Shown here piece by piece: positions 9,301 through 47,240 of a stretch of DNA of 64,000 nt. Made by a program: the position numbers and the translations under genes. Source of the stretch: Liolophura sinensis. Its lineage: Eukaryota > Mollusca > Polyplacophora > Chitonida > Chitonidae. The DNA lies in NCBI RefSeq assembly GCF_032854445.1, contig NC_088307.1, positions 24,685,953 to 24,749,952 on the forward strand, written 5' to 3'. The stretch's first letter is position 1. Every line of letters begins with the position of its first letter. The notes below the pieces were generated by a model. The model was not told the DNA's origin. It worked only from the letters and a program-made list of their open reading frames with translations, and did no database searches.

Positions 9301-12300
9301 CCTTCCTCCCACAGTCATGTTGGCCTCCGTCGTATGAAAACTTCTCGACTATGGCATAAAACACCTAGTACTCTAACTGACCATAAATTTTGTCCATGAC
9401 TAACTTGCCCATTTTTCCTGATTTTGAGAGTTCTATTGATTTTAGAACGGTGTTTTCAGGTTTGCTTGGAACATGGGATGATATTCTACTGGAAAATTGT
9501 GAGTTTCAGCACCAAAAATAATATTTTATGACATTTATTTGCCTCTAAAAATGCACTGCTGTGGTCAAAATTTGTGGTCACTTGGGTTAAATAGAGAAAT
9601 AAACACAAAGAGAAGTCACGATTCTCACCCGTTGTAAGAAGAGCTGTCCACCGTGAGCCAGTCATCATTGACTGGGGGTGGCATGGGGGTAGACACTGTT
9701 GATGTTGACACCTCTGATATAATGCTCAGAGCCTCCTTTGTGGCGTGGTACATCCTTAACAGCTCTTCTCGACGGCTAGCTTCTTCTGCAGACTCCTCCA
9801 TCATGGAATTCTGGGATGGGGAAGAATGCAACAGTCTTTGTACATTTGAAGAGGTTTTAGAATCTCTAACAGCTTGAGGCAGAAATTTCCAGACATAAAT
9901 TTGCACATAAGTGGAGATGACTTTAAAGTGATAGTTACCTGGTCACCCTGCGAGTACAGATGTGCCAACAGTTCTGCATGAATAAACTCTTTGATCTGAA
10001 AGACAAAATTCACAGATGTTTCAATAATCGCATGACATGTCACATATTTAATGGACACCACAGTCAACTCTTTTCAAGTAAATGCCCTGCGTAAATTTTG
10101 ACATCTGGTACTACAAGATTCAGTATTCATTAAAACGTTATATTTAATAACCCAGACTACCAACTAAGACATTCACATAAAAAAATCCAGAAAACGGATA
10201 ATGAACAAAAGCATTCCAACATATTCCTCAGTGCAAATCAAGCAATTACAAAACAGTCTGAACATAAGAATATACATCTATGTATCCCAGTATCTGCATC
10301 ACAGAATTCAACAAAAAACATGTTATTCAAAGGGAGTAAATTCAGACTCACGTCATTGACAATGAGGTGCATGATGACCTTGGGCACAAGGTCACGCTGC
10401 GTTTTGTTGATGATCTTCATGTAAGAATCGACCAAATTGCGGATTGTCTCTACCTGACGCTCTAGCTGAGGGTCCATTGAACCCAGGTCTTCCGATCTCT
10501 AAAAGTGCCAATACCAGCTTATTTAATAATGTAAAAAACACAGATTTTGCTGCCCTCTTTCTACTCAGACAAAAACTGTCAATAAACACGTGATTTTTCA
10601 AAACATTTCATCTTCAAACGCTGCTGTCTGGTGTTAAAATTCCATAAAATGTATTTGATTTACAAGAAAACAATTTGATACATAGAATGGAGAATGGACA
10701 TGATTTGCAAACATCTATTTATTTATTCATCTGGTAGCAGATTAATACCACGTTTGAGACGTTATACTTTCGCTGGTATGACAGCAACCAGATTTATGGG
10801 TGGAGAAGACCGTACAAAAAGCAAAGAAATCAAATAATTGGTAACCACAAATCCCAGATGAGGTAAACATTCAACTACTGTAGTCCAGGAAAATTATTCT
10901 TTATACGTGATGAAACACAGCATATTGAGTATTTCTAGACCATGCAGTCACGTCTAATAAATGCAGCGACGTTTACTTGCATTGGTTGATTTCTTCATTT
11001 ATTTATTTATTTGATTGGTGATTTATGCCGTACTCAAGAATATTTCACTTATACAACGCTGGCCAGCATTATGGGAGGAAACTAGGCAGAGCTTGGGGAA
11101 AACCCACAGCCAACCGCAGACCTTCCCACGTATCCTGGAAATGAAGTCACAACCTCACTGGTGAGAGGCTTCTGGGTCATTGTGCCACGCAGGGGTGCTA
11201 TCCATTTTAGCCACGGAGGCCCCGTGCACTGTTTAAATGTGTTTGTATTTTAACTGTGATAGCTACACAGCATTTTGAGTAATTCTAAACCAGTGACTTA
11301 TAATAAAAGTAGCATCCAAGCATTTTTTTAAATGTAATTCTGCTCAAGAAATGGTTCTAGAGGGCATGTAATTTGCTACTATAATTAAGCATTTACATGA
11401 ACAGTTAGATTAATACCCTGAGGTAATCTGACAAAAAGGCGTACTTCATCAGTTGCATTTGATTCTTTGCCAACCATCACACTGTCTTTGCTGCTCTAGT
11501 TTTACTCTCCATGCTGCAAGTCTAATATATTATGTTCTTCAGCTAGAAAGTCCTTACACTATCACTGTCTTCCTGTGATCTGTCTGGATAGACTCCTGCT
11601 CGTAGGAAGGAGGCTTTCCAACTGTCCACTTCCTCCTGACTGTCAGCGGACAGCTCAAGCTGCTTGTAGTCCTTATACACATTTCTACAGAGGAAAAATG
11701 GCATTCAATCAGACAGGTGCTCCAATGTTCACAGAAACAGCATAGAATTTTGAAAGAATTGTGGAAACATTTTATATGGTAGAATTATGTTTTAAATAAA
11801 CAAGGAAATCCTCTTTCATAGGATTTATGGAAATTCTTTTTCATAGGACTTATGGAAATCCTTTTTCATAGGACTTATGGAAATATGGATGACTTTAAAA
11901 ACAGTGAAATATAAAAATTGGGTATAAAATCAAGGAAACATGGAATTGTAGTAGACAGAGAAATATTAATCTGATACCTAGAAGAATGGAAATCGTATAG
12001 AATTGTTATTATGTTAATGAAAATGACTAAAACAAATGAATTTCTGTCAGCTATATACAAAAACTGGTAAAAAAAAATTTTTTTGAACTGTATAAAAATA
12101 TGGAAATACATGTATAAAAATTGACCTTAAAGATGTGTTAATTGTGAAATGTACACAGACGTATGCTGTTCATAGGACCAAAAACTTTCCATCTTGGATA
12201 AGACACCTGCAGGTAGATCACTTTTGCAAAGCTATTCTTGACTTTAATGAGGGAAATATCAATTCTTGGAATCAAATTTAAAAAAAAAATGCAATATGTG

Positions 12301-18300: not shown

Positions 18301-21300
18301 GCCATTCCAGAAGATACAAATTATCCCACTGGTCTACTCTTCACAGTCCACTAACCTTACTAGCATGCTTGACAAGCAAGGAAGGCTTCATCCTCAAAGA
18401 TTTGACTAGGAGTTGAATCAAACCAAACCAAAATTCAAATCTGGTTTTTCAGCCACTACACCAAAGTACAATGTCATTTGCGATGCATACATGGAAGCAT
18501 ACAGAATCTTTTTCACAGACTAGAAATCTGTGTACGGGATTTGTCTCTACACTGAACAGGTGTGATAGTATACACTTCAAAATCAAGACATGAAGATAAT
18601 TTCAAACATAAGAAAAGGGTAGTAACTCACAGCAGACAACAGCACCAACCCAGGTGTGAGATGCACGCACAAAGAGTCCAGATATGAGAGAACAACGTGG
18701 AGTCAGTGTGACAAGAATTCAGTCAGGGGTCGGTGAACACACGCAAAATGGCTTACCTAGCTTCTGGATTAAAAAGAGCGAAAAGGTGTTTCGAGGAAAA
18801 AATGCCACCTTCGAGGTCGCGCAACTTTAATCCATCCAGAGGAAGCATGAAACGTTTCTCAGACTCCTGTGCACAGCGAAAGATGAAGCCAAAATCAAAA
18901 AGGGGTGAAAAAAGGAAAAAAAAAACAAAACAGACAGCTTTAGTACACTGTACAGCACAGACAGATAAGAGTGTCTTATAGTGCTGTATTTCAGAACCGG
19001 ACTGCAATCCAATTCTGTTCAGGACAGTGAGAGTTACCTCCCTTGAAATGACGACCTTGTTTATGTTCAACCTTTCTACAGCATAACCAGCTAACACAGT
19101 CCTCCACTACAAGGACTGATACACTGGTCAACTACTGATGATGCTAAAACCTTCAGATACCTAGACACCCCCTAAATATTTGTCTCAGGCAGAAAATAAT
19201 TAACCTTTACTGCAGCTTGCACAAATGCGAAATGTAGATTCGGTGTGATTGGGTTTTCCTGTACATATGTAGTCCGACTAAATGGAGTTTGCATTGATGG
19301 TTTAGGGTGGCTTTTTGACAAGGTTTTGTAATACTGAGAATGTACATGTACTGCAGTGTGATGTTTATGTCTTTGGAGGTTGGGGTTTGGGGGGGGGGGA
19401 GGGGGGGTGTAATGAAAGGATCTTGAGGGGTGGGATAAAGATGTTTATATGGGTTGAAGAGAGCAGGGTTAATTCCTAACAGTCAGTTTAATACTTACCA
19501 TCCATGAACCGTTACATGCACCAACTACCCTCACTTGCTTTGTCAGATTTTGCTAGGCTGAGATTATAACTATATGGTCCTTCCCAGACCAATAAGTGAC
19601 TACCCTATGAAAATTATGATTAAGAACACATGAAGTGCTGTAAATGCAAAATGCTGGGCATCCATATGAAGGAATGTATTAAATCATGCTGTCTTAAAAA
19701 TAGCAAGAAAAGCAGATGACTCGATGGCAAGCTGATGACTCAGTGGCAAGCTGATGACTCAGTGGCAAGCTGATGACTCGATAACACAAGCAGATAACTT
19801 GGTGGCAAGCAGAAATGCAAGCAAGCAAGCGAGTAAAGCATTGCAAAGCAAGTTGTAACGACAATGATAATCAATTATCATGTGATTCTGTGTTTCAGAA
19901 GGTCTTGTTCAATACCTTGAGTCAGGGTTGAAGAGTTTAAATTGGTGCTTCTTAGACATAAAACTTTGTTCCTGGTTATCCCGTAATTTAAGCCCGTCGA
20001 GAGGTAGCATGTAGCGTTTTTCTCGCTCCTAAAAAAAAGTAGCAAAAAACCAAACAGGCCATACAGATACACATGCAGCAAACAAAACACTCAGATGCGC
20101 AAATACATGGGCTAAAATGCTTATTGTGTACTTTGGTGCGTTGCCATCTAACAACAACACATTTACACTTCTCGGAAACTCGCTTGTGTAACAGGTAACG
20201 AGTCTCAAATTGTGCAATCATCTGTACCCTTTGGGACCATTTTGTTTTCCAACCATTTTCGTTACACATCGCATGTATTCCAGGATAAATAACTAAGAAT
20301 GTGTAGCTACAGATTTATACAAGAACATCTGGCTCACACATCAATAGGCCTCCTCAGAGTTACCTCCCTTATCCCAAGCCAGCAGCTTCAGGTGTGGTGT
20401 ACCACAACATTAGTTTTTAAGGCATGAAAACACGAGAAGCTATTATCTCCGAAAAGCTTAACAATTACATAAGGTTTATCCTGGTTTATCCTCATGCTTT
20501 CCAAATCATTTTACAAAATTTATATCTGTCTTGTAGGTCTTAAACCGACTTACGCACAGTTGGCTTCAAAACTCATTATTAGCCGTTTTTCAGGTTTTCA
20601 GACATGCTAACTCACACCTAAATGTGCCAATTAAATGGGAGAGTGTCACCTCCAGGGAGGTAATCTGGTGCGGTCCTACTGAACTGGCTCAGACTCCACA
20701 GTCATCTCCTGAGCTTAATACTAGAAAACAATGAGGATCCACTATTTTGGGCCTTCAAAGTTTCACAATTCACATGTAGCAGCAGGCTGCCATCCAGTTA
20801 GTAATGCAATGTTGTCTCCTCCCCTCCCCCCCCCCCCCCATCCCATCCCATAAAAAACAACCATAAAACAACTGTAGATATGCATCTACTGAAATTCCAC
20901 CTCTGGGATGACCCTACATCTTATGATTGTGGCTATTTTATTTTAGAATTAATTGTTAACAAACATAACCCATATACACCAGAAAATTGTCTTTGTGTAA
21001 GCAACACGTTTTAGAACAAAGAATAAAATAAAAAAAAAATTTAAAAAAAACTTTTAGGAAATAATTTGATCTAAATGTGCTGGTATATAAATGCAATATT
21101 TCTTAGGTTTATGGTTTAATTCTGTGATTTTTAAAGTAGCTTTTGAAGCATATACAAAAACTTTTCATGATGTGTGCTTGTGGGGGCTTAAAAACTACAT
21201 TCGTACTTTTCAAACCCTACTTGGTCATGCCTTGTTTTAATTCTAGTTTTTGTTATTTTCATTTTTCTTCATTTTTTGTTTATGTCCCTATAAATATCAT

Positions 21301-24300
21301 GGAATATATGTACAAATATATACATATATAATATGCTCAATATACTTTTGCAAATTAAGTAAAGGAAAATCAAAGGTGTCAACAAGAAGCAGAGAAAATT
21401 GTGTTATTATTTATTAGATTGATACATATTTAATGTCTTGGTTAGTGTTACGTTTATGCTTTGATTAAGACGATGTTGCTGAAGCAAACTATGATAATTG
21501 TATGCTATATGTAAGATGGTCATTAAAAAGCACATGATAAACAATAACCCAGAAACCTTATCCGAGAGAGTAAAAAGCCTGACCCTGGAAAAACTGAAAA
21601 CTCAACCCAACACCATGTGTACAGGATGTGATGAGTGGAGATGTCTATAAAGGGAGATAACTCAAAAGCCATCACCTTGTACACACAAACTAATAAAAAT
21701 CATGTGGCCATAAGCAATAATGTACACAGCAGTATGCCAAGCCAGCTGAAAACCCATGCACATTTAATATTTCACTCTGTGGTTAATGTTTCAATACAGG
21801 AGTTACCTCACCATGACATGGGAACTCTTTCCAATTTAAAGGTAAAAACAGTACGCCAATTTAGTCGAGAGAAGCTTGTCAAGACTGATCAACTTGTCAA
21901 TAGGGTTTGTCGACGAAAATCCAACATGTTAAAACAAATGAAGTGAAGACTTCAAGAAATCAAAAAGCAGTCTGAAATGCGGTTCTGTAGGTCAGTGACA
22001 AAGAATAAGCTTCTGAAGAAATTCTGATAATTACTTATGTTTCACTGTTTCTACCTTTAAATTAGTTGTAAGCAGCCCAAGCCCAAGGCATCACAAGGGA
22101 GATAACCCATGTACCCATTCAAATTTTAATGGCTGATTTTAGAGCCATGCGGAAAGTCTCTTGTTAGTGATGTTAATAAGCTTGTGTTTACCAAGGTCAC
22201 GCATCCTTCCATAGAAACAGAAGAATGCTTAAACCTTAGGTACAAAGATATTTTGACAGCATTTTTTTAACCAGACATGACAACTTCATGCACCAAATCC
22301 AAGGCTTTGAGAGATGACATTCCACCCATATTAAGGGGACACAACTCTGTCGACTGTAATAAAGGGAGGGAATTAGCAATCCAAACTTAAAGGAAGCTGT
22401 GTGAAAAGGCAATCAGTTGTTAAAGACTAAATCAATACTTGCCAAAAAAAAAAAAAAAAAAAATTGCTGCATAAAACATTGCAGTGACTAGAAAAAATCT
22501 AGAATGTACAAGAGGTTTTGTGTTCTTTCCTCCATGAATAAACCTGTAATACAATGTCATGAATGAATCTATGGATGACAAAAGGTACCTATTATCAGTG
22601 TTAATCAAAGCAAAGGTTGGTCTCCGAGAGAATATTCCTGTCTCCATATCCCGGATTTTCAAGCAGTCTAGAGGAAGCAAATATTTCTTGTCCTTCTCCT
22701 GAAATTCAAGCGGGAGTGTTGAGACGAGATCAGAAAACACTAGTTTAATGGCCAAGCCTAACTAAAAATATGACATGCTAACAGCCAATACTAAATTGGG
22801 ATCAAAAAGAATTTATGAAATTTAATTATGCTATTATTCCAAGCTGGCTTAAGAGTTGTCCTTCCACTGAAATTCAAGCGTCAATGTTGAGCAGTGATCC
22901 AAAAATACTAGTTTCGTAGCAAAGCCTTAATTTTCTTGTGAGTCATTTTAACAGACAATACTAAATCTTTACCAAAAAGGCACTTAAGAAAATTAAGTAA
23001 GCTATTATTCCAAGCTGACTTAAGGGTTAGCTTTTTAAAGTTAAGAGCAAAAAACAAAAAATAAATAACACCAGACATGATAACATACGTTTTGGGTGAA
23101 AAAAGCTTTTCTGTTTTTCAGAAGTTTATACAGTGCTTAAGAACTGTATCCCTTTTCCTATGGCTGTACACATAAAATTATTACAAACTACTTGTAGCAA
23201 TATTTACACATAAATGATCATATTTTTTCCTTTCATTGGAAAATTCTGACAATTTCCACGGAAAATTTATTTACATCATTGTGCTTGAAATCCACTGTGG
23301 GTGTGTTAGTTTTTCTTGACTGCCACTAGTGAGACAGCGGCATGTTAAACGTTATGAGGCAAAAACATAAACTGCTCATAAGAGTAATTCTAACGATAAG
23401 GAAAGAAAATCTTCTAATCAGAGTAATTCTAATGATAAGGAAAGAAAATCTTCTAATCAGAGTAATTCTAACGATAAGGAAAGAAAATCTTCTAATCAGA
23501 GTAATTCTAATGATAAGGAAAGAAAATCTTCTAATCAGAGTAATTCTAACGATACGGAAAGAAAATCTTCTAATCAGAGTAATTCTAATGATAAGGAAAG
23601 AAAATCTTCTAATCAGAGTAATTCTAACGATACGGAAAGAAAATCTTCTAATCAGAGTAATTCTAATGATAAGGAAAGAAAATCTTCTAATCAGAGTAAT
23701 TCTAATGATAAGGAAAGAAAATCTTCTAATCAGAGTAATTCTAACGATAAGGAAAGAAAATCTTCTAATCAGAGTAATTCTAACGATAAGGAAAGAAAAT
23801 CTTCTGATCAGAGTAATTCTAACGATAAGGAAAGAAAATCTTCTGATCAGAGTAATTCTAACGATAAGGAAAGAAAATCTTCTAATCAGAGTAATTCTAA
23901 CGATAAGGAAAGAAAATCTTCTAATCAGAGTAATTCTAACAATAAAGGAAAGAAAATCTTCTAATCAGAGTAATTCTAACGATAAGGAATTACCCTGATG
24001 AACAGATTATGTTTCTGCCTCATGACATTTAACATGCCGCTGTGTCACTGGTTGGGGACAAGAAAAACTAAAACATGCCACCTAATCATGAAGAAAGACT
24101 GAAATTTCAATTGTTTTTCCTGAAAAATTTATAGTCAAATTAAGGTTATGTTATAGAAAATGTAAAGTAAAATTTCACTTTTTTGCATTTTTCCCAAAAG
24201 GCGTTTATGTATGAATGATAAGCTGATCGATCACTTGTATCTGCGGCTAAAAGTTTATATTTTACACGTCTGTTTTTTTTTTTCCTAAATTGTTAAGAAA

Positions 24301-27300
24301 TTTTAGACTAAATGAGGATATGGAGCCATGTCATTAAGTTTAGGAGGAACACTGCAACAAAAACACAAAAAAATGCCCACACACACATACACACTTTGTC
24401 CTGCACAGTTGCTTTGTTACACAATTCACAAGCTTTTGGGGAATACTATTTGTCAAATTGTGATCAATGATTTCTGCACTATTTCTATTTGGAACACCAA
24501 ATCAAATACATGAAAATCACACCCAGTGTTGGGTGACACCAAATATGACACCTAATTAAGCTGTCACATCAGGTCGACGCCAAACATGACACTGTGACTT
24601 GCTATAGTACTTCATAGTACCAAGCATTAAGTATGAAACTGTATCCAGCAGTGACCTTAACAATCAATAGTACGCCATGCCACTTCGTAATATTAGATTT
24701 TGAGTGGCATTTTGTAAGAATATACATAAATCACAATGAAATACTGATATTCATTTTTACCAAAGCACCAAAAAATATGTTTAAGTTTAAAGCAATTTAA
24801 ACACATGATAAGGTATGAATAATTAAAAAAAAAAAAAAAGCTCAATAGAAATAATTCTGACTTCTACAAAACTATTTTGGGAAATAGCTGCATCAAATTT
24901 TATCATGACTATAAATTTAATTAAAATTTAATTATAAATTTAACCTTAATTTAACATAATAATAACGTAATCAGAATATTTCCGGTGAAATATGAAAATA
25001 TACACTGAACAAAAATATAAACGCACGAACAAATATTTTCTGTTATTTATATGTCACAAAATATAGTACATATCCCAAAAGAATGGGACATATTTCTGAA
25101 CAATTCAGCTTTAATTTGCGAGCATTGCAATCAATTCTCAAGCAATAGCCCTGCAGTAATGGCAGGAAGAGGACAATGGGGGTCAATGGGTCAAGTTTAC
25201 AGACGTCAGTAACGCGTGTGACCACCATTGGCCTCGCGTAGAGCTGTCCACCGGCGACGCATGGTCATCACCAAGTTGTCAATTGTGGGCTGGGGGGATG
25301 TTGTCCCAGTCCTCCTGGAGTGCCACTCGCATTTGGCGAATGTTCTGGGGAACTGGAACCCGGTGGCGGACACGCCTATCCAGAACATCCCAGAGGTGTT
25401 CAATGGGTGACATGTCTGGTGAATACGGCGGCCAGTTGAGGACAGGAATATCCTCCTCCTCAAGGAAGTCCCTGCATATGCTGGAAGTGTGTGGGCGGGC
25501 GTTGTCGTGTTGGAAAGTCAAATGATGGAGCACCACAAAGGGCGCAACAATAGGTCTAAGGTTTTCATCTCGGTAACGTTGTGCATTAAGGTTGCCGTCG
25601 ATGAAATGCAGACGTGTGCGCTGTCCATGACAAATGCCTGCCCACACCATGACACTTCCGCCACCGTAAGCCACCCGTCGCAGGACATTAGCGTCAGCAT
25701 ACCCCTCACCAGCACGGCGCCAAACCCGAACTCTGCCATCAGCATGGTGCAGCTGGAAGCGAGATTCGTCACTAAAGGAGCACAGTCCTCCAACGAGCAA
25801 GTGTCCAGCGCACATGAATATTGGCCCAGTCCAGTCGTGTCCGACGTCGGGCTACCGTTAGGTCGATGCCCTGGTGTGGTCGACGTGACCGGAGATGAGC
25901 CTCCCGCAGCCGGTTCCTGACTGTCTGGGCTGAAATCTGCCTGTTGTGAAGACCGACAGTCTCATCAGCAGTTCTGGTTTGCTGGGCGGGGTCCGATCAC
26001 GCAGGTGTTGGAGCCGCATGTGCTAGTCTTGTGAGGGCGTGGTCACACGTGGCCGGCGTGGCATGTCGGCATGTGGCACAAATCCACACTTTGGGGTGGC
26101 CTTTTACTGAGCAAGCTGTAAGGAATGTCTGCGTGTTGCTCACGCACACTGACCATCGCACTGTCACGCCCCATTGGTCACATGGGTTGACTTTTTTCAG
26201 CATATGAGTATACCCACTCAGAATGGTCAATTGCAATGGGACCACTTGTGTTGTGCAACACGAAAGGACCTATTAAACAAATATATCACTGGTTTGACCA
26301 TTTCCAAATAATGGTCAGTTTGACTTGGATATATAGGTTGGTGCGTTTATATTTTTGTTTCAGTTTAGTTCAATTCCCATCATAAATTGCAATTCTGCTT
26401 TGTCCCATTTTAGCATAAAACATTTTCAGCCTAGTCCATTACATAAACTTCAACTTTTGCCTTTTTTTTTGTCATACATATTAATTCACCACAATGTTTT
26501 TCTTACCTCCTCATCCTTGAACCAGGAGAGCGTCTCTGCAGTCAGCACAAACCAGAAGTCCTTTTGACCCTCCCTTCATGAAGCTGATATTATGTAAAGT
26601 TAACCAGCCTTTACGAATCACCTGCAGGCACATAGGAACAAGGTTATGGTCAAGTAAGCACAGTAAACAACATGCTGCTGGTGAGCACTTTCTTATGTTA
26701 ACCCTATGCAGCTACCAGAGGTTGCTTTAACACATGATATGACAGAAAATTACACCAGATAAAAGTAAAAACAAAACATGAGGTACATATCTATCAAACG
26801 CATAGTGACTTTACTATAAATATTCGACCTTTTTCAACCCCTAAAGCACGTCTTTCAGTGGAATTCATGCATACAACTATTATGTTAATCAAGCTAAAAA
26901 TTATTTAATGTATTTATGTCACAAAATATTCAAGCTGCATAAAGCTGTGCAAATTATTTCTGCACAGCCATAGTTTACTCAGAATGTTCATAAAAAATAA
27001 TGGACAGCACTGGCTGTTGAAAAGGTTGAGGCATAAGGGTGAAGACTTCACGACTAGAATTAAATGTGTTGCTACTGAAATCTAAAAATTTGTACACTGA
27101 TTCTTTACTGCAGAACAATGAACCGACCACAATTCGAGTTCAATCCTGTTCTGAATTTGGCTTTTTAAGCACCTGTAATTGATGACTTGAGTTGTAAGTT
27201 AATCAATAAATACGAGCCTTAGGCCCTCGCGTCATGAAGTGATTACCAGCATCCTGACTGTAACTACTGTGACTGTACATAAACACATCAAAGATTTACA

Positions 27301-30300
27301 AAACTGAAAATCTTCAATCTTTTCAACGACTTCAGAACTTTTTTGAAGTGGAATTTACGCTTAAAATTATTATGAAAATGACTTGTTCCAGCCATTAAAG
27401 ATGCAAGCTTCATAAAACTGCAAATTATTTCTCTACACTCCATTGTTCATAATTAGGGAATGTTGCCATGGTAGTTACAAACAACTTAGTTCATCACCAC
27501 TTGTTGGAAATGGGACATAATTATCAATAATTATCAATAATTATCAATAATTATTTTGGTATAAATAAGTTATAGAGAGATGATATACATGTACCACAGA
27601 ACACCATCTTTGATCCTACAAATTATTTTTTCAAAGAGACTATTTCAGAGATGCCATACCTGATTCCCGACTTTTCTTTTGTTGTGCTTTCTGACTTTTG
27701 TTGGGCACTGTTGAAAAAAAAACAAAAAAAAACAAAATCAGAATCAAATTCAAATATGGTCCACATCAGAATTCTATTGTATCATTCACTAAAAAAAAAA
27801 AAAAAAAAAGAAAAAAAAGGGTTCAAAAATCAATATTCTTGTACAAGTAATATTTTGAAATAATTTTCAACATGTCAACAAGCCCCCAGACAACGCCAGC
27901 TTATAATTTGAGCTTTTTTCACGTGCATTTAAGAGGAACCCCTGATGAAACTTACTTGGCGAATCCAATGAAATCTTCATGGTTTGTGTTCATGTACGCC
28001 AGTTGGACCTCCACCAGCAATAAAATCTGCTCTTTTGTACACTGTTCCCGCTCTCTAATACGCGTGTTCACAATACGCTCTGTTTCTTCTCGTAACCGTG
28101 GGTAACGATTCATCTGGGGAAAGAAAAACATGGAATATGGTTAAACTGCAGTAGGAAGTTTCAACCTCAATAAATTTTTTTGTGAAGAAAAAAAAACTTT
28201 ATTTATTTATCTATTTGATTGGTGTTTTACGCCCTACTCAAGAATATTTCACTTATACGACGGCGACCAGTATTATGGTGGGAGGAAATCGGGTAGAGCC
28301 CAAGGGAGACCCACGACCATCTGCAGGTTGCTGAGAAACCTTCCCACCTATGGCTTTATTTCAGTGTCTACAGTAACTGCATATTTAAAAAATAAAGGTT
28401 AGCTTTTTGCGGGAAAATTACTTAGTTACACGCAATGAATCATGGGGTACACTTAGGCAAATCTGAGAGTGGAACGCGCCCACCCCCAAAAAAGGGACAC
28501 ACAAACGGTTTGAAGATGAGAAAGCAGCTGCTCAAGTCTGCACCATAACACAGCAGATTGTCAAACAACAGGGTAAAGTGCTTATAAACAATGTATAATT
28601 AAGTTGCACTTATAATCTAACATGTCCCATTAGACTCCACAACATGCTTTACTGCTCTAAAAATCACTAGATTGAAAACTGATGAATGATTTGTGATATG
28701 TTATAAATAACTCCAACAACTATTTTTTTTTCCTTAAAATTTTGGTCAGAGTTATTGCAGTCAGCATGCAGAGTTCAAGAAAACTACATATTGCCATTTA
28801 CAGGACAAACATTAAGCTCATCTATATTAAACACACAGCTTTATTGGTCTGAGATTCGTGACTAAGTGACATCTCATTAAATCAGTGAGGCATTACAAAA
28901 ACACTAATTTGTTTAGAGGTAATAATTTGATTGGTGAATCCAAGATTTTTTCACTTGTCCAGTTCACGGGATAAGGAAACTGGATATGCTGGAGTGCCCT
29001 GTGTAAATCAACTGCCCTGTGTAAATCAACTGTCTTTCACTAAGAACCTGACAAACCTCTTGACAAAAAAGTTACAGCCAAACAAGCAAGAACTGAATTT
29101 GAGCATGTACATCACCTGAAGTGAGAATCATGCTTAGGTTGAACTTAAAGGCTACCAAAGAGTTTAGCCTGATGCATGAGGTGCAAAGTCGTGGATTTTG
29201 TAATTCACGGTGATTAATATACACACAGAGCATCAAGAATGGAACATTTCCCTCAAAGTCACTGTGCTTTAAATGGACACAAAACCTCAGTTCAATACAT
29301 GCATCACTTTCTGAGATGTCACTGCAGACACTGATTCCAATACATAATACACTAAGACAAAAATTTTGTAATTTTAATTCAACGATGGAACACTCCGCTG
29401 CTACTGCGCTCTACATACATGCAAAGCCTGTGCTCAACACATGCAGTACTTTCTAAGACACCACTCCTAACATTTTGTTTAACTTTGCATTCACTCCTAC
29501 TGAACAATGACGTCGACGCTAGGGGACTGACATAAGCTACGCTACGTATAAGCTACGTATTTTGTATGTATGTCTGTATGCCTGGGGTTAATGTTGTGCT
29601 TAACAATTTTTCAGTCACATGACGATGAGGTGTCATTAGTTGTGTGTACATAAATTGTGTCTTCTTATGGCAGGGCGAGTCCATGCAGTTAAAGTGCTGC
29701 TGCCACTGAAGTATCATGCTGAAGACACCAGACAAGACACTCCACCAGTTACATTATACAACAGGTCAACCAGTTCTGTTTCCCTGCTCTAACTTCCCAG
29801 AGTTGAGCTCCATGCGCCTGTACTTTGTAGCAGCGAGCCAATAAACCAGAGACTAAACTAATTTGAGGAAGAAAAGTCTGTATCTCTTACCTGGTCACTC
29901 ATTTTGCGGACTATGTTTGTGAGTTCCTGTATAACCATGTCGACACACTTCACTGATGGCTCTCGCAATTTGGAAATCTGTTTCTTGACAATTGTCTCAA
30001 AAGCCATGTCTGGTGTGAACAGGCCAGTCCTTATCAAGGGAAGAACAAAAATAGAGATTGTCAGTGATACCATAGAAGTATAAAATCCCCTTTACCATGA
30101 AAGCTAGGAAAACTTACTTGATAAAAAATATGTTACGAATAAGCGATCCATGGACCTGAGAAGACAGGCCATCGAAAAGTCCATATATCAATTCGAAATA
30201 GAGAGGATCTAGTCCATACATGCAATTCTGTAGAATACGAGTCACAGTTTCAGCTGAACTTAGCTGCTGACTTTAACTCCTGGACCACAATCACGGCTTC

Positions 30301-45300: not shown

Positions 45301-47240
45301 ATGTTAGTAGTGTTGAAAGTAAAATATTACACTTCTTTACCAGCCTTTTGGAAAGGTAACAATACGAGTATGTTGTCCATTAGATTGACTAACCATCTTC
45401 ATACTGACCTCATTTTAAAAAATGTACATTAACATGTATAAGGGATGGTGCACACCTAAATATAAATGACCACATCTAAATATAAATGACCACTCCTAAA
45501 CATCCTTGGTCCTGTATTTTATGTTGCCATGTCGCAATAAGACTGTCTGAAGTAAGGTAAACACTAAATTTAAGCCCTCTGTAGTTTCATAGTACTTAAC
45601 AAACTCACATGTCCACGACGCATTGCATACACCAAAAATCCAGAAAAAAAACATGGATAACCAAGCAGGTGCCTCATGAAAGCTTCAAGCATGGGCTGGA
45701 ACCTTTAAAATTGTGTTTTCTCGCTCGACTGACTGGGCAAATTGTTCTTTCTAGCCTACATCCATGATGACTGATGAAATCATCGTTAAAGTTGTCATTT
45801 AAGACCACCTTTATGTTTCAGTCAAGACTAGATCTTTTCTTGTTAGGTTGACTTCCTTGTCTTCTGGCATGCGAATCCAATATTTAAGTACACCCGACTC
45901 GCCATCACATCACAAAGTTATTTTCACGAGCAAGAAGGGATTATTTCTGTGGATTTACACACTAAAAGTGCCTTGCGGAAAGGGCCTACCATGTTTTTGA
46001 ATTCAATCATTAAACACTGAGGCAGGTAAATATTAGAAATTCCTGAAAATAGGCCTCAACACTTAATTTAATTGAACTAGTAACTCAAATGATCATTTTC
46101 AGCCCTTGCTATGTCTATTTCATGGTGAAAACTACAAGAATATTATGATGACGAATGATTACTACATAAACCTAATTTGAAAACTCAAATTTATGTCAGT
46201 ACTCCATAAATCTGTCATAAGTTTCTCACTACCTCAACATTTGGAGGGGCCTCCGTGGCCTAGTCGGTTAAAGCGCTAGCGCAGCGTAATGACCCAGGAG
46301 TCTCTCACCAATGCGGTCGCTGTGAGTTCAAGTCCAGCTCATGCTGGCGGCCGTACGTGAGAAGGTCTGCCAGCAACCTGCGGATGGTCGTGGGTTTCCC
46401 CCGGGCTCTGCCCGATTTCCACCCACCATAATGCTGGCCGCCGTTGTATAAGTGAAATATTCTTAAGTACGGCGTAAAACACCAATCAAAAAAAAAATCA
46501 ACATTTGGATTGAGTCACATTTAAAACATCAATCTCTGTTTGCTTTTCAATAACAAAATCAGAGTAAAATCACATCAATTGCTGTAAATGTCTATCAGAA
46601 AAAAGCAGACCAATAGAAATACAAACTGCTTAACAACCTAAACAGATAAGAGGTAATTTGATACATTTAAATGGAATAAATAATAATAATAATAAGTAAA
46701 TGTAGGCCTATACATATTTCTTTCAAACCCGAAACATATATTCTATATTCAGCGAATCAATTACCTCTGATCAATACATAGTAGCACATGACAGTGAAAA
46801 CATCCGCATGTGTCGTAATCCATAGATTGGATCTGTGTCTACAGAACGTACGCCCCCCTAACCGATAATCGAACAACAAATTGTCCAACCTATTCTAAAC
46901 AATACAGTAGTAGCTACAACCCCTGTGCTAACGCCCAAACAAAGCATTCCTGATGACACTCAAATAATTAGTCAAATGAACAGGCACTGGTCCATCAAAT
47001 GTTGACACTGTTTTTGACAGCAATCCACCGGGGAAAATGCGGAAGACGATAAAATATCAAATCATCAACGACTTACCTGCCGACAAAATTCTCCAGCACC
47101 GAACTCTTGCCGGCACTTTGGCTGCCCACGACGGCGATTTGCGGTAGATCGAGGGAAATCGGCACACCGAGTGAAGCAAAGGCATCCTGCAGCTTGTTGA
47201 CTACAGGAATCAGCTGCTCCATTCCCATATTACCCGACAT
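3283..47240 (-). CDS. DNM1: Dynamin (large GTPase, classical DNM1/2/3 type), 20 coding exons
   Basis: Membrane-fission GTPase that assembles as a helix on the necks of endocytic vesicles and severs them on GTP hydrolysis. Joined exons, 5' to 3': 47240-47077, 36615-36542, 35460-35311, 34558-34355, 33134-33036, 32466-32358, 31996-31802, 31269-31134, 30802-30735, 30029-29891, 28113-27956, 27707-27660, 26621-26507, one of three alternative exons, 11684-11558, 10498-10352, 9995-9939, 9810-9629, 8515-8363, 3361-3283. All junctions are GT-AG with matching phases, except that exon 12 is one base short and exon 13 one base long. Predicted length is about 837 aa, against about 860 for human DNM1. Order: GTPase (about 1-300), stalk, PH (about 513-625), GED (about 635-750), proline-rich tail. 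All G motifs are intact (GSQSAGKSS 39-47, T66, DLPG 137-140, TKLD 206-209). The PH and proline-rich tail distinguish it from the mitochondrial DNM1L type. It is probably the single invertebrate orthologue of DNM1-3, so the symbol is approximate. Confidence 0.96.
3842..3990 (+). mobile_element. SINE-A, 5'-truncated
   Basis: Body and tail only: GTCGTGGGTTTCCCCCGGGC, GTGAAATATTCTTGAGTA, and (AAAT)n tail. Confidence 0.85.
4008..4257 (-). mobile_element. SINE-A, diverged, near full length
   Basis: On the minus strand, from a GAGGTCTCCTTGGCTGAATG-like head (A box TGGCTGAATGG) to the CACCAATGAAATAAATG tail. Confidence 0.8.
4452..4659. mobile_element. MITE-A copy
   Basis: About 208 bases with terminal inverted repeats AAATCTTCAACCTTTTCAAC and GTTGAAACGGTTGAAGAATT. 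Noncoding. Confidence 0.7.
5700..5802 (-). mobile_element. SINE-A fragment
   Basis: Minus-strand body with an internal deletion; recognisable by the CTAGCGCAACACAATGACCC and CCATGGATGGTCATGAG equivalents. Confidence 0.6.
5899..6088 (-). mobile_element. SINE-A, 5'-truncated
   Basis: Minus strand; the tail half is recognisable as TGATTGGTGTTTAATCAAGA and CATGAGCTGGACTTGAACTC on the plus strand. Confidence 0.8.
7084..7411 (-). CDS. Possible alternative C-terminal exon of dynamin
   Basis: An open frame of 108 codons behind a plausible pyrimidine-rich acceptor (ending GTGATTAG|G at 7412). Its phase matches the end of exon 19 (and of exon 18). It reads [20 protein letters not shown] then [20 protein letters not shown] and an alanine-rich stretch [16 protein letters not shown], with a stop at 7086-7084. 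Codon use looks coding to about 7195, where a possible donor (CCTAA|GTATGT) also occurs. I do not recognise the peptide from any dynamin. It could also be part of an unrelated gene or a chance frame. Confidence 0.4.
8363..8515 (-). CDS. DNM1: Dynamin exon 19: proline-rich domain
   Basis: 153 bases encoding about 50 residues rich in proline and arginine: [20 protein letters not shown] then [20 protein letters not shown]. Such PxxP and PSRP motifs bind SH3 domains of amphiphysin, endophilin and intersectin in known dynamins. Acceptor is CCCACAG|C and donor is CCAAC|GTGAGT. Confidence 0.9.
9255..9364 (+). mobile_element. SINE-A fragment, diverged
   Basis: GGTTTTCCTCATCCTCTGCC and TCGTCGTATGAAA...GGCATAAAACACC-like ending mark the 3' half, in dynamin intron 18. 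Confidence 0.65.
9380..9590 (+). mobile_element. MITE-B copy
   Basis: Shares ACCATAAATTTTGTCCATGA, GAGTTCTATTGATTTTAGAA and TTTGCCTCTAAAAATGCAC with the copy at 38207. Noncoding. Confidence 0.7.
9629..9810 (-). CDS. DNM1: Dynamin exon 18: end of GED and start of proline-rich tail
   Basis: 182 bases beginning [20 protein letters not shown]. It passes through [20 protein letters not shown] and MPPPVNDDW, the typical GED end, and stops at YNG. Acceptor is CCCCATCCCAG|AAT and donor is AACGG|GTGAG. Confidence 0.94.
9939..9995 (-). CDS. DNM1: Dynamin exon 17: GTPase effector domain
   Basis: 57 bases encoding [19 protein letters not shown], a GED stalk helix. Acceptor is TTTCAG|ATC and donor is CCAG|GTAACT. 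Both ends are in phase 0. Confidence 0.93.
10352..10498 (-). CDS. DNM1: Dynamin exon 16: start of GTPase effector domain
   Basis: 147 bases, 49 codons. It opens [20 protein letters not shown] and ends [31 protein letters not shown] is the hallmark start of the GED, whose helix packs on the GTPase domain and stimulates hydrolysis. Donor is GAC|GTGAGT. Confidence 0.94.
10994..11224 (-). mobile_element. SINE-A, near full length
   Basis: Minus strand, from GGGGCCTCCGTGGCTAAAAT head to the CAATCAAATAAATAAATAAA tail, in intron 15. Confidence 0.85.
11558..11684 (-). CDS. DNM1: Dynamin exon 15: end of PH domain
   Basis: 127 bases beginning [20 protein letters not shown] and continuing [20 protein letters not shown]. 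This is the last PH strand and C-terminal helix. Acceptor is CTGTAG|A and donor is AGT|GTAAGG. It needs an upstream exon ending in phase 2, which all three exon 14 copies supply. Confidence 0.93.
11804..11882. repeat. 25-bp tandem repeat, three copies
   Basis: Three copies of GGAAATCCTTTTTCATAGGA CTTAT, 25 bases apart. Confidence 0.85.
13430..13979. repeat. 18-bp G-rich minisatellite
   Basis: About 30 copies of the unit GGGGACAGGTCTTGGGAA and variants. The plus strand carries dense GGGG and GGG tracts. Open frames in all reading frames here reflect the period (a multiple of three). Confidence 0.95.
14058..14437 (+). pseudogene. Plus-strand frames resembling a small secreted protein, interrupted
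   Basis: One frame opens [17 protein letters not shown], a good signal peptide, followed by a cysteine-rich stretch ([19 protein letters not shown]). It gives way near 14219 to a second frame with [20 protein letters not shown] and ending at 14437. The two frames join only by a frameshift or an unseen intron; GTAAGA occurs at 14231. I do not recognise the protein. It lies inside a dynamin intron on the opposite strand. It may be a decayed gene, an exon pair or chance. Confidence 0.25.
14490..14882 (-). mobile_element. SINE-B-related repeat
   Basis: In plus orientation it reads TTTAGGTTTAATGTCGTACT ... CATGCTGAAGACATCAGACA ... GGGTTGGATCCCAGG (reverse of a B box) ... CCATTAGGCCACCGAG. The tRNA-like head is at the right end, so the element lies on the minus strand. 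Confidence 0.7.
17923..18116. repeat. 48-bp tandem repeat, four copies
   Basis: Units contain TTTAAGTTGACACCTAAAAA, TCTAGCTGTTTTACA and CTACTAAAGG, spaced exactly 48 bases apart. Confidence 0.9.
18757..18866 (-). CDS. DNM1: Dynamin alternative exon 14a (PH domain)
   Basis: 110 bases, acceptor GCACAG|GAG, donor GCTAG|GTAAGC. It reads [20 protein letters not shown] then [16 protein letters not shown]. It is the copy closest to vertebrate and insect dynamins (compare FMSSKHIFALFN in human DNM1), so it is probably the default form. It lies nearest to exon 15, still 7 kb away. Confidence 0.9.
19715..19812. repeat. 19-bp tandem repeat
   Basis: Four to five copies of GATGACTCAGTGGCAAGCT, decaying at the right end, in the intron between exons 14b and 14a. 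Confidence 0.85.
19916..20028 (-). CDS. DNM1: Dynamin alternative exon 14b (PH domain)
   Basis: 113 bases, one codon longer than its sisters. Acceptor is TTTTTTTAG|GAG and donor is TCAAG|GTATTG. It reads [20 protein letters not shown] then [17 protein letters not shown]. The loop [15 protein letters not shown] is more basic than the equivalent in the other copies. Phases are identical to 14a and 14c. Confidence 0.86.
22589..22698 (-). CDS. DNM1: Dynamin alternative exon 14c (PH domain)
   Basis: 110 bases, acceptor TTTCAG|GAG, donor AATAG|GTACC. It starts [20 protein letters not shown] and continues [16 protein letters not shown]. It is the first of three copies met in transcription order. 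It has diverged at several PH positions (DC for [22 protein letters not shown]) but keeps the fold pattern and phases (0 in, 2 out). The sequence just upstream of its acceptor is tandemly duplicated. Confidence 0.85.
22699..23035. repeat. Tandem duplication (about 168 bp) beside dynamin exon 14c
   Basis: The intron sequence upstream of the exon 14c acceptor (22699-22867) is followed by a diverged second copy (22868-23035). Both contain TGAAATTCAAGCG, an ACTAGTTT word, CAATACTAAAT and GCTATTATTCCAAGCTG. The second copy keeps the acceptor-like TTTCAG but no exon. Confidence 0.75.
23306..24071. mobile_element. Foldback element with internal 39-bp minisatellite
   Basis: Imperfect inverted arms of about 80 bases. 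The left arm begins TTAGTTTTTCTTG and contains GACAGCGGCATGTTAAACG; the right arm contains CATTTAACATGCCGCTGTGT and ends CAAGAAAAACTAA. The 39-base array lies between them. No coding capacity, so nonautonomous. The arrangement resembles short-TIR elements with internal satellites known from bivalves. No certain target-site duplication was seen. Confidence 0.75.
23380..23990. repeat. 39-bp minisatellite
   Basis: About 16 copies of a 39-base unit containing GAGTAATTCTAACGATAAGG and AAAGAAAATCTTCTAATCA. Because 39 is a multiple of three, it gives a 218-codon open frame of a 13-residue repeat ([12 protein letters not shown] type). This is not a real protein gene. Copies differ at few sites (AACGATA/AATGATA). 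Confidence 0.95.
25003..26365 (-). mobile_element. Tc1/mariner DNA transposon
   Basis: 1.36 kb element inside the intron between exons 13 and 14c. Left end CACTGAACAAAAATATAAAC and right end (reverse complement) AACTGAAACAAAAATATAAA form inverted repeats of about 27 bases. TA dinucleotides flank both ends (25001-25002, 26366-26367), as in Tc1 insertions. It encodes a transposase on the minus strand. Confidence 0.9.
25206..26050 (-). pseudogene. Broken Tc1-type transposase (DD34E)
   Basis: The catalytic core is open from 25815 to 25279 and shows the DDE residues: SDESRF, HDNARPH and [11 protein letters not shown], with 34 residues between the second D and the E. The N-terminal part ([17 protein letters not shown], about 25955-25840) lies in another frame. 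A one-base insertion separates it from the SDE motif, and a stop lies further upstream. The C-terminal end (TIDNLV...GGHTRY) is also shifted near 25285. At least two frameshifts plus a stop make it inactive. Confidence 0.85.
26507..26621 (-). CDS. DNM1: Dynamin exon 13: first half of PH domain, one base too long
   Basis: 115 bases starting [20 protein letters not shown], then [18 protein letters not shown] only if one G is removed from AAAAGGAC. It covers the first PH strands and the first variable loop (MKGGS). Acceptor is CTGCAG|GTG and donor is GAGGAG|GTAAGA. The extra base offsets the base missing in exon 12 in total length, but the two do not rescue each other because a stop appears between them. 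Confidence 0.82.
26825..27036. mobile_element. MITE-A copy
   Basis: Same ends (CGACCTTTTTCAACCCC / GTTGAAAAGGTTGAGG) and shared interior (GCAAATTATTTCTGCACAGC), in dynamin intron 12. Confidence 0.68.
27308..27462. mobile_element. MITE-A copy, right end lost
   Basis: Starts AATCTTCAATCTTTTCAACG and shares AAGATGCAAGCTTCATAAAA with the 4452 copy. Confidence 0.65.
27517..27555. repeat. 10-bp AT-rich tandem repeat
   Basis: About four copies of TTATCAATAA. Confidence 0.8.
27660..27707 (-). CDS. DNM1: Dynamin exon 12: linker into PH domain, one base short
   Basis: 48 bases between TTCAACAG| and CAG|GTATGG. Entered in the frame of exon 11 it reads [15 protein letters not shown], a normal dynamin linker. 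The conserved end GNQ, which joins to VIRKGW of exon 13, is in another frame. One base is missing, most simply in the GGG run. Read as it stands, the next codon after the junction is TGA. Confidence 0.8.
27956..28113 (-). CDS. DNM1: Dynamin exon 11: end of stalk
   Basis: 158 bases beginning [20 protein letters not shown] and ending [13 protein letters not shown]. Donor is GCCAA|GTAAGT. The frame is open throughout and the exon ends in phase 2. Confidence 0.93.
28198..28354 (-). mobile_element. SINE-A, 5'-truncated
   Basis: Minus strand; TTGATTGGTGTTTTACGCCC and TTCACTTATACGACGGCGAC are diagnostic on the plus strand. Confidence 0.85.
29563..29815 (-). mobile_element. SINE-B-related repeat, head missing
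   Basis: Shares GGTTAATGTTGTGCTTAACA, CATGACGATGAGGTGTCATT and AGTATCATGCTGAAGACACC with the copies at 14490 and 48571. Confidence 0.7.
29891..30029 (-). CDS. DNM1: Dynamin exon 10: stalk
   Basis: 139 bases beginning [20 protein letters not shown] and ending IVRKMSDQ before CAG|GTAAGA. It corresponds to the segment that vertebrate DNM1 and DNM2 duplicate as alternative exons 10a and 10b. I found only one copy here. Confidence 0.93.
30317..30726. repeat. 25-bp minisatellite in dynamin intron 9
   Basis: About 16 copies of ATGGTTACAATCACTGCATG TCTCT, some with one or two extra bases. It ends only 8 bases from the exon 9 donor side at 30734. Confidence 0.95.
30735..30802 (-). CDS. DNM1: Dynamin exon 9: stalk
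   Basis: 68 bases. It encodes [20 protein letters not shown] and ends in a split arginine codon. Acceptor is TTTTTAG|ATG and donor is ATCAG|GTAAGC. The following intron holds the 25-bp minisatellite. Confidence 0.93.
31134..31269 (-). CDS. DNM1: Dynamin exon 8: stalk
   Basis: 136 bases. It encodes [20 protein letters not shown] and ends [19 protein letters not shown], a conserved stalk segment. Donor is CAAG|GTACAT. Confidence 0.94.
31802..31996 (-). CDS. DNM1: Dynamin exon 7: start of stalk
   Basis: 195 bases beginning [19 protein letters not shown], with [16 protein letters not shown] near the end. This is the end of the G domain and the first stalk helices. Donor is ATGCA|GTGAGT. Confidence 0.94.
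32205..32236. repeat. Tetranucleotide microsatellite (ATGA)n
   Basis: Uninterrupted AATG/ATGA run in dynamin intron 6. Confidence 0.9.
32358..32466 (-). CDS. DNM1: Dynamin exon 6: G5 region
   Basis: 109 bases. It encodes [18 protein letters not shown] and ends [14 protein letters not shown] is the G5 loop, so this exon completes the nucleotide pocket. Acceptor is GCTCAG|GA and donor is ACAG|GTCAGT. Confidence 0.94.
33036..33134 (-). CDS. DNM1: Dynamin exon 5: G4 motif (TKLD)
   Basis: 99 bases, residues 198-231. It contains [15 protein letters not shown], the guanine-specificity motif, and ends LLPLRRG. Acceptor is TTTCAG|GT and donor is AGAG|GTTTGT. Confidence 0.94.
33715..33954 (-). mobile_element. 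SINE-A, near full length
   Basis: Minus strand, from GAGGGGCCTCCGTGGCTGAG to the tail at 33715, in dynamin intron 4. Confidence 0.85.
34163..34300 (-). mobile_element. MITE-B fragment
   Basis: TCTGAAGGATACCATCCTGC and CCTAAACACCTTTCTAAGAC match the 36124 copy. Confidence 0.55.
34355..34558 (-). CDS. DNM1: Dynamin exon 4: switch II (DLPG)
   Basis: 204 bases, residues 130-197. It carries [14 protein letters not shown] (switch II, G3 motif) and ends [14 protein letters not shown]. Acceptor is TTGCCAG|TG and donor is CAGG|GTACGT. Confidence 0.94.
34592..34775 (-). mobile_element. SINE-A, diverged
   Basis: Minus strand in dynamin intron 3, ending about 34 bases from the start of exon 4. The body has a deletion. 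Confidence 0.75.
35311..35460 (-). CDS. DNM1: Dynamin exon 3: GTPase domain
   Basis: 150 bases, residues 80-129. It begins [13 protein letters not shown] and ends INLRVYSPH before donor CATG|GTATGT. The sequence is close to animal dynamins throughout, including ETDRVTG and NKGIS. Confidence 0.93.
35578..35873 (-). mobile_element. SINE-B-related repeat, tail missing
   Basis: Shares GCAGGGCGAGTCCATGC, CATCAGACATGACACCCCAC and ATTAGGCCAC, in dynamin intron 2. Confidence 0.7.
36124..36345 (-). mobile_element. MITE-B copy
   Basis: Minus orientation: CCTAAAATTTCGCCCC at one end, then GAAGGATATCATCACACCTT, CCAAACAAACCTCAAAACAC and GGACGAGATTTTTG. Confidence 0.65.
36542..36615 (-). CDS. DNM1: Dynamin exon 2: switch I
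   Basis: 74 bases coding for [19 protein letters not shown] and the start of the following loop. It carries the switch I threonine T66 that coordinates magnesium. Acceptor is CACAG|A and donor is ACAG|GTGAG. Confidence 0.93.
37045..37313 (+). mobile_element. SINE-A, full-length with target-site duplication
   Basis: tRNA-derived head with A box (TGGCTCAGTCGG) and B box (GAGTTCAAGTCC), conserved body, and an AATAAATAAATAAAT tail. It is flanked by a 14-base duplication TGAAAAGGTTAAAG (37031-37044 and 37314-37327), the mark of LINE-driven insertion. It landed in the end of a MITE-A copy. Confidence 0.92.
38207..38425 (+). mobile_element. MITE-B copy
   Basis: Shares CATAAATTTCGTCCATGACT, GTTCTATTGATTTTAGAAAG and TTGCCTCTAAAAATGCAC with 9380, and ends AAAATTTTAGGTCAATT. 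Confidence 0.72.
39590..40848. repeat. 83-84-bp satellite in dynamin intron 1
   Basis: About 15 head-to-tail copies. The unit contains CTTCAGTGTAATACAGATGT, CTGTATACAAAAGGGGG, GATAACATACTGATAGAGTT and ACTGATATTACATGTATATA. It creates long open frames on both strands that are not genes. Confidence 0.95.
42293..42580 (-). mobile_element. SINE-B copy
   Basis: Reverse complement of the 55807 copy over most of its length: GGGTTTAATGTCATACTTAA at the tail and GGCAAGTAAGTTGCCCGCCC in the body. Confidence 0.75.
43258..43534 (-). mobile_element. MITE-B copy with visible inverted ends
   Basis: Ends AAATGACCTAAAATTTTGC and GAAATTTTAGGTCATTT are inverted repeats. The interior has CCAGTAGAACATCATCCTAT and ACAAACCTCAAAACACCTTT. 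The left end is partly duplicated. Confidence 0.75.
46246..46497 (+). mobile_element. SINE-A, full-length with target-site duplication
   Basis: Same family as 37045. It starts AGGGGCCTCCGTGGCCTAGT-like and ends in a short A run after CACCAATC. It is flanked by TCAACATTTGGA on both sides (46234-46245, 46498-46509). Confidence 0.92.
47077..47240 (-). CDS. DNM1: Dynamin exon 1: start codon and P-loop
   Basis: Encodes residues 1-54 plus two bases of R55. It begins [20 protein letters not shown] and contains the P-loop GSQSAGKSS with catalytic-site lysine K45 (K44 in human). The ATG is the first in frame and has a good context (AAAATG). The donor is CAG|GTAAGT. Intron 1 after it is about 10.5 kb, as is usual for a first intron. 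Confidence 0.95.

Follow-up and report, generated by a model that had tools for sequence, protein, structure and literature searches.

We analysed a window of 64,000 nt from the mollusc Liolophura sinensis (contig NC_088307.1, 24,685,953 to 24,749,952); all positions below are window coordinates. Its minus strand carries a classical dynamin gene, the one such gene found in the genome. Dynamins pinch off membrane vesicles. Three exons of this gene, 14a, 14b and 14c, are diverged tandem copies of one another. The features of the gene are, in the order of the transcript:

47077..47240, minus strand: exon 1, coding part, with the start codon and the P-loop of the G domain
roughly 36615 to 30735, minus strand: exons 2-9, lying between exon 1 and exon 10
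29891..30029, minus strand: stalk exon 10, present in one copy
27660..27707, minus strand: exon 12, donor GTATGG, ending in phase 2
26507..26621, minus strand: exon 13, constitutive, first half of the PH domain, 115 nt, with VL1 and the VL2 motif DEE
22589..22698, minus strand: exon 14a, 110 nt, acceptor TTTCAG, donor TAG/GTACCT (the slash marks the exon end), 36 residues plus AG
19916..20028, minus strand: exon 14b, 113 nt, donor AAG/GTATTG, 37 residues plus AG, one extra codon
18757..18866, minus strand: exon 14c, 110 nt, donor TAG/GTAAGC, 36 residues plus AG
11558..11684, minus strand: exon 15, constitutive, end of the PH domain, entered in phase 2
10352..10498, minus strand: exon 16, start of the GED
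9939..9995, minus strand: exon 17, GED

Typed and joined exons gave clear dynamin domains. The GTPase domain (PF00350) of exons 1-12 reached 190 bits against a cut-off of 27, the middle/stalk domain (PF01031) 347.6 bits and the GED (PF02212) 92 bits; all exons of the G domain, the stalk and the GED that were translated were open. Two proline-rich open stretches further downstream, near 8538 and 3387, are candidates for the proline-rich tail.

The three copies of exon 14, with their lengths of 110, 113 and 110 nt (2 modulo 3), AG/GT borders, phases and peptides, had been described in an earlier note on this DNA and were confirmed to the base. All three have AG/GT borders, enter in phase 0 and leave in phase 2. 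Searches of copy against copy by tblastn yielded E values of 3e-8 to 3e-12, and the peptides matched human DNM1 at 23/36 (14c), 22/36 (14b) and 19/36 (14a) residues. When 18 exon queries were run against the window, second copies turned up only for the three exon-14 queries; the 15 others, which included stalk exon 10 and left out exon 12 and the tail exons, had no second copy in the window, all second matches having E values of at least 0.17. A position-specific scan of both window strands with a cut-off of 20 returned the three known places and no fourth or decayed exon-14 copy. The introns beside the copies shared 29-42 of 100 positions at the best of 13 offsets, a figure without shuffle control. 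The splice sites differed in quality. Donor 14c scored 6.66 bits, while 14a (3.95 bits) and 14b (3.44 bits) were weak; the fraction of minus-strand GT dinucleotides in the window that scored as well was 2.6%, 9% and 12%, respectively. The acceptor of 14b was the most pyrimidine-rich of the three.

The exon covers the middle of the PH domain, corresponding to residues 558-593 of human DNM1, and contains strand beta-4 and the loops that follow it. Spliced PH forms all had dynamin-1 PH chains as best match (14c 1.6e-55, 14b 4.5e-53, 14a 1.5e-52), and with exon 13 read across a frame break (see below) they scored 51.2 (14b), 45.7 (14c) and 45.5 bits (14a) with Pfam PF00169 at a cut-off of 25.1. 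An artificial in-frame skip form fell just under this cut-off with 24.6 bits. In a PF00169 family scan the dynamin PH exons were absent from the list, presumably because the PH domain is split. The DNM2 exon-14 deletion 1652_1659+1delATGAGGAGg is reported to place the exon end after DEE (PMC3776141). The intron position is thus the same as in human DNM2 and makes the copies homologous to DNM2 exon 15.

The loops of the exon had been said to touch phosphoinositide membranes. This is half right. The exon does encode beta-4, whose lysine 562 is reported to be required for PIP2 binding (PMC8563704), and the loops after it; yet VL1, the membrane-inserting loop that carries I533 (PMC9653092), and the VL2 motif DEE are encoded by constitutive exon 13, outside the swapped exon. 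Since residues 561 and 562 are basic in 14a, 14b and 14c, basic PIP2 binding should persist in all three predicted forms. The copies differ at residue 559 (K, R, S), in the loop 575-585 and at the loop edge 591-593, and the net charge of the exon is +1 in 14a, +2 in 14b and -1 in 14c. By these differences the forms would be graded in affinity or lipid preference with 14c as the weakest, and contacts with the membrane or between PH domain and stalk may differ as well. Variable columns made up 12/14 of the loop and 9/22 of the non-loop positions (Fisher p 0.014), a purely descriptive value as the borders were picked after viewing the alignment.

We followed the reading frame through exons 15-17 for all eight inclusion patterns. 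The three patterns with a single copy were open and the other five reached a stop, bearing out the claim that none, two or three copies break the frame. Skipping of all three led to a stop at codon 4 of exon 15, the combination of 14a and 14b to a stop in exon 16 and the other three multiple inclusions to a stop in 14c. That exactly one exon is chosen, as the earlier note had it, is still the best reading of the anatomy, yet the frame rule by itself is an automatic consequence of the duplication of any phase 0-2 exon. Taken together, 14a, 14b and 14c probably form a three-way mutually exclusive PH exon cluster in the one classical dynamin gene found. The spliceosome would join exon 13 to one of 14a, 14b and 14c and then to exon 15, all three copies being spliced in vivo and the choice being regulated by tissue through trans-acting factors. 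Messages with none, two or three copies would shift frame, run into an early stop and should be degraded. In published criteria (PMC5740500), exons count as mutually exclusive when reads span the junctions of every copy and no reads link one copy to another, unless that link shifts the frame.

The DNA of the copies was 54-60% identical, pairwise pS was saturated at 0.77-1.02 and dN was 0.28-0.54. Nevertheless, the pairs kept 17, 19 and 24 of 36 residues compared with neutral means of 8.8-10.9, and among 20,000 neutral simulations 2, 0 and 0 reached these values. With synonymous sites saturated and 17-24/36 residues identical no copy looks dead; by this comparison the protein sequence of the copies is under long constraint. 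Copy-specific changes at codon positions 1, 2 and 3 numbered 9, 4 and 5 in 14a, 5, 2 and 5 in 14b and 0, 1 and 10 in 14c. Exons 14a and 14b changed faster than 14c, and their own changes do not cluster at third codon positions, as would also be seen under relaxed or rapid evolution. A pattern scan of prokaryote genome contigs gave 592 matches and, as expected, no relatives.

In a rival view one copy, most likely 14c, does the work, and at least one of the other two is a decaying old duplicate that is now seldom if ever spliced. Exon 14c is nearest to DNM1 and has the best donor and the cleanest third-position pattern, and the weak donors of 14a and 14b point the same way. On the other hand, a long-dead exon would probably have lost its open frame, its AG/GT borders and its 17-24/36 shared residues, all of which the three copies keep, and the PH domains built from each lie well over the Pfam cut-off. 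We consider a single working copy unlikely. Still less probable is a role of the extra copies mainly as poison exons, where double inclusion or skipping tunes the dynamin level through degraded messages: early stops in 5/8 patterns would suit it, but a conserved PH peptide, which every copy has, is not required of a poison exon.

The irregular part of the gene lies upstream of the copies. In this assembly the reading frame breaks by +1 within exon 13, near 26562-26569; therefore the gene as assembled is closed into all three exons, unless the break comes from an error of assembly or belongs to one allele. Furthermore, the good donor of exon 12 leaves in phase 2 while exon 13 is entered in phase 0, and no DEIL-like microexon reconciling the two was found. 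Frame break and phase mismatch would fit a pseudogene or a misassembly, but this is most improbable given the open G domain, stalk and GED exons with 190, 348 and 92 bits, the failure to find a second dynamin PH locus and the 54-60% DNA identity, which is too low for an assembly duplication. The search for such a locus or a haplotype copy elsewhere in the genome, with the 14c form as query, had returned six scored candidates and none of this kind.

We also looked for RNA structures that might control a mutually exclusive choice. A limited docking-selector scan compared stretches of 2000 nt, one following exon 13 and one preceding exon 15, with 400 nt beside each copy. After exon 13 there were no triple matches with either set of sites. 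Before exon 15 the upstream sites gave one triple match (shuffle mean 0.1, without positional control) and the downstream sites two (none in 20 shuffles), but this latter excess was withdrawn because 9 of 31 window chunks also have at least two. The limited scan found no docking-selector structure above this positional control. Between 11600 and 26700 there were 22 pairs of inverted repeats, two in mobile elements and several of low complexity. One pair of 20 nt with 95% complementarity lies in the 14a-14b intron (21833-22063). Steric exclusion by introns too short for splicing was discarded, with 2560 nt between 14a and 14b and 1049 nt between 14b and 14c.

Among the closest known systems are exons 10a/10b of vertebrate DNM1 and DNM2, which are likewise tandem, diverged and mutually exclusive exons of a classical dynamin; in DNM1, competing RNA structures are said to decide between them (PMC3923563). 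They encode part of the stalk and are two, whereas here the PH domain is affected, the exons are three and exon 10 is single. Fly and worm reportedly lack exons 10a/10b (PMC2916854). Known dynamin splicing had been equated with 10a/10b and the C-terminus, which is incomplete: in DNM2, exons 12b and 13b close to the PH domain are optional as well, and lipid appeared to activate the GTPase more strongly in the 12b form (PMC9652393). These too are alternatively spliced beside the PH domain, but as in-frame optional insertions and not as a choice among homologous exons. In cytohesins, diglycine and triglycine motifs of the PH domain are reported to differ in phosphoinositide selectivity (Klarlund 2000, cited in PMC6948192), the diglycine forms being described as splice variants (PMC6948192); there the selectivity likewise varies, but by a change of one residue in another protein family. 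Protostome muscle myosin heavy chain genes, those of molluscs included, have old mutually exclusive exon clusters that swap functional loops and were mapped across 116 metazoans (PMC3912159). They resemble the present case in swapping loops within one gene, yet in a motor domain and with 116 metazoans compared to one genome here. The titles and abstract starts of the literature matches listed held no three-way PH exon choice, in agreement with the earlier note.

The PH exon cluster would be a further variant beside exon 10a/10b, by which a single gene could yield three dynamins that differ in their targeting. More tentatively, and with some doubt, we suggest that an animal with a single classical dynamin gene gains three dynamins with different membrane-binding faces by the PH exon switch, which may be old in molluscs or lophotrochozoans, may be used in different tissues or on different membranes and may partly replace the three vertebrate genes. 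If true, splicing can diversify the membrane targeting of a fission machine in a genome without paralogues for that role. How much the PH domain of dynamin sets the site and manner of fission is debated, and three natural PH forms of a protein that is the same in all other parts would offer a ready test.

Finally, the intron upstream of 14a contains a tandem duplication of ~160 nt, which creates a second AG 168 nt upstream of the 14a acceptor:

22867..23028, minus strand: 5' copy, ending in the second, decoy-like acceptor AG
22699..22857, minus strand: 3' copy, ending at the 14a acceptor

The local alignment score of the duplication was 121 compared with a maximum of 28 in 200 mononucleotide shuffles.

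A classical dynamin gene occupies the minus strand, running from exon 1 with the start codon and the P-loop at about 47.2 kb of the window to the GED exons, which encode the domain downstream of PH, at about 9.6 kb; two proline-rich stretches follow in the window. Translations of the typed exons scored 190 bits for Dynamin_N, 348 bits for Dynamin_M and 92 bits for GED with Pfam-type domain models. Between exons 13 and 15, which encode the first half and the end of the PH domain, one exon is present in three diverged copies in the transcript order 14a, 14b, 14c. The best reading of the sequence is that these form a real, old-looking, three-way mutually exclusive cluster.

Exons encoding the PH domain (window coordinates)
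26621-26507, minus strand, exon 13, constitutive
22698-22589, minus strand, exon 14a, 110 nt
20028-19916, minus strand, exon 14b, 113 nt
18866-18757, minus strand, exon 14c, 110 nt
11684-11558, minus strand, exon 15, constitutive

Re-extraction returned the coordinates, lengths (110, 113 and 110 nt) and phases of the three exons as given in the earlier note. Each copy is bordered by AG and GT, enters in phase 0, leaves in phase 2 and ends with AG, which the first base of exon 15, an A, completes to an arginine codon. Joined singly to exons 15, 16 and 17 the copies kept the frame open in 3/3 cases. Skipping of all copies led to a stop at codon 4 of exon 15, while 14a+14c, 14b+14c and 14a+14b+14c ran into a stop within 14c and 14a+14b into one within exon 16. 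Because an exon of asymmetric phase was copied, the open frame is limited to single inclusion, a rule which would have existed from the moment of duplication. The claim that exactly one copy must be chosen thus holds for the reading frame; the phase rule enforces exclusivity at the protein level, yet it is no proof of regulated splicing.

The similarity of the copies is beyond chance. In tblastn searches of the window, the exon-14 queries were the 3 of 18 that found a second place, with mutual matches at E 3e-8 to 3e-12; every second match of the other 15 had an E of at least 0.17 (the query set did not extend to exon 12 or the tail exons). A matrix of the three copies and DNM1, run over both strands of the window in all frames, scored at the places of 14a, 14b and 14c only, with no further copy above cut-off. 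For the pairs a-b, a-c and b-c, 17, 19 and 24 of 36 residues and 58, 59 and 65 of 108 bases were identical. Synonymous sites were saturated (pS 0.77, 0.92 and 1.02) with a dN of 0.54, 0.42 and 0.28, and the observed identity was reached in 2, 0 and 0 of 20,000 neutral simulations per pair. Between adjoining introns, the best of 13 offsets gave 29-42 matching bases per 100, a figure without a shuffle baseline. Changes in a lone copy at codon positions 1, 2 and 3 numbered 0, 1 and 10 for 14c, 9, 4 and 5 for 14a, and 5, 2 and 5 for 14b, a count that is biased where third positions are saturated; the pattern of 14a and 14b fits a faster or relaxed protein change. Identity to DNM1 was 19/36 for 14a, 22/36 for 14b and 23/36 for 14c, as compared to 29/38 for exon 13 and 29/35 for exon 15. 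The copies are about as distant from each other as from human, which suggests an old origin of the cluster, though fast change would look alike in a comparison with one genome.

The spliced PH forms with 14a, 14b and 14c matched the dynamin-1 PH chain 3zys with 179.9, 181.7 and 189.4 bits and the Pfam PH model with 45.5, 51.2 and 45.7 bits (cut-off 25.1). An artificial in-frame form lacking exon 14 reached 24.6 bits, marginally under the cut-off. By these scores, all of which include exon 13 read over its frame break, the three forms look foldable.

This break is the main caveat. Exon 13 (115 nt) carries a +1 frame break near 26562-26569 (minus strand). Furthermore, exon 12 ends at its good donor in phase 2 and exon 13 enters in phase 0, a phase mismatch. 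As identified in this assembly, the exons give no continuous reading frame from exon 11 to any exon 14 copy. A spliced dynamin PH query against the genome (609 Mb, 632 contigs) found no second locus at E up to 10, with 6/6 matches inside the window gene, though another could be concealed by runs of N or by withheld stretches. Dynamin-family loci, some as near-neighbour pairs, lie at C1:16.18-16.23 Mb, C10:14.77-14.84 Mb and C10:33.29-33.31 Mb, and were absent from the matches of the PH search. As the genome search gave no further dynamin PH locus and the remaining translated exons have open frames, the break is likeliest a sequencing error, an assembly error or an allele. Such errors are not genome-wide, since eight tandem haemocyanin beta-sandwich matches on one contig have open frames of 429-529 aa. 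These matches also identify the genome as that of a mollusc.

Exon 14 aligns with residues 558-593 of human DNM1, numbered by a reference sequence whose PH part agrees with the PDB chain. The copies are counterparts of DNM2 exon 15, presumably single in human, because the intron position after DEE coincides. Excerpts of one report place the human exon end immediately after DEE by a DNM2 mutation (PMC3776141). When one 14b residue is left out of the alignment, the copies agree in 15 of 36 columns, and six columns (559, 575, 577, 582, 585, 593) differ in all three; residue 559 is K, R and S in 14a, 14b and 14c, whose exon net charges, counted as K and R less D and E, are +1, +2 and -1. The human GFMSSK loop, which we take to be the one sometimes named VL4 and to contact the membrane by F579, reads GIFSRR, SFMSKK and GIFSSK. 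Lysines for PIP2 binding are grouped in VL2 and strand beta-4, where K562E essentially abolished binding, according to excerpts of PMC8563704; in 14a, 14b and 14c, residues 561/562 are K/K, K/R and K/R. I533 of VL1 inserts into the membrane (excerpts of PMC9653092), and VL1 is encoded in constitutive exon 13. Because 561/562 stay basic and VL1 lies in exon 13, the choice of copy preserves the core PIP2 site and the insertion loop, and what varies is the rim. The proposal that the exon covers loops touching phosphoinositide membranes is half right: strand beta-4 and the loops after it are part of the exon, but VL1 and the VL2 motif DEE belong to exon 13. Since the PH domain packs against the stalk in closed dynamin (excerpts of PMC9652393), altered autoinhibition may equally be an effect of the switch.

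How one copy would be selected was approached from the splice sites. Steric exclusion is ruled out by the spacing of 2.6 kb (14a-14b) and 1.0 kb (14b-14c). Docking-selector control by competing RNA structures showed an apparent excess in a limited scan, but this did not stand up to a positional control: 9 of 31 window chunks were equal or better. Donors scored 3.95 (14a), 3.44 (14b) and 6.66 (14c) in a model built from 15 constitutive donors in this gene, which themselves scored 1.96 to 13.03 when left out one at a time; of the three acceptors, that of 14b is the richest in pyrimidine. On the favoured reading, trans-acting factors at weak splice sites would set the choice, with removal of wrongly spliced messages. 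A 160-nt tandem intron duplication (22699-23028, minus strand) reaches the 14a acceptor, with a second acceptor-like AG 168 nt upstream.

In vertebrates, DNM1 and DNM2 messages carry either stalk exon 10a or 10b, as the earlier note had stated, whereas tblastn in the window found one exon 10 in Liolophura. The note had omitted the optional DNM2 exons 12b and 13b (excerpts of PMC9652393). Fly and worm are reported without the 10a/10b choice in excerpts of PMC2916854. Diglycine and triglycine PH forms of cytohesins are reported to differ in lipid selectivity. Molluscs are also known to have old exclusive-exon clusters in myosin heavy chain (PMC3912159). Among the matches listed, mostly outside the subscription literature, no title or abstract start had alternative PH exons in a dynamin; automatic mollusc annotations may already contain such isoforms. 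The three-way cluster is best read as a new variation on known dynamin and exclusive-exon splicing.

Downstream of the GED exons, a 140-aa open frame without Pfam match (7084-7506, minus strand) is possibly an alternative C-terminal exon or the next gene. Three dynamin introns hold large minisatellites at 39589-40850 (84 bp unit), 30312-30724 (25 bp) and 13430-13977 (18 bp), with the 18-bp array situated between 14c and exon 15. The 14a-14b intron contains a 20-nt inverted repeat (21833-21852 / 22044-22063, 95% complementary). The intron preceding 14a carries, at 23302-24075, 15.6 copies of a 39-bp minisatellite enclosed by inverted ends of 89 nt (84% complementary), an arrangement that resembles a non-autonomous mobile element. 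It also has a Tc1/mariner-like element at 25008-26359, in which inverted ends of 29 nt enclose a DDE_3 transposase match on the minus strand (25279-25815; 64.2 bits).
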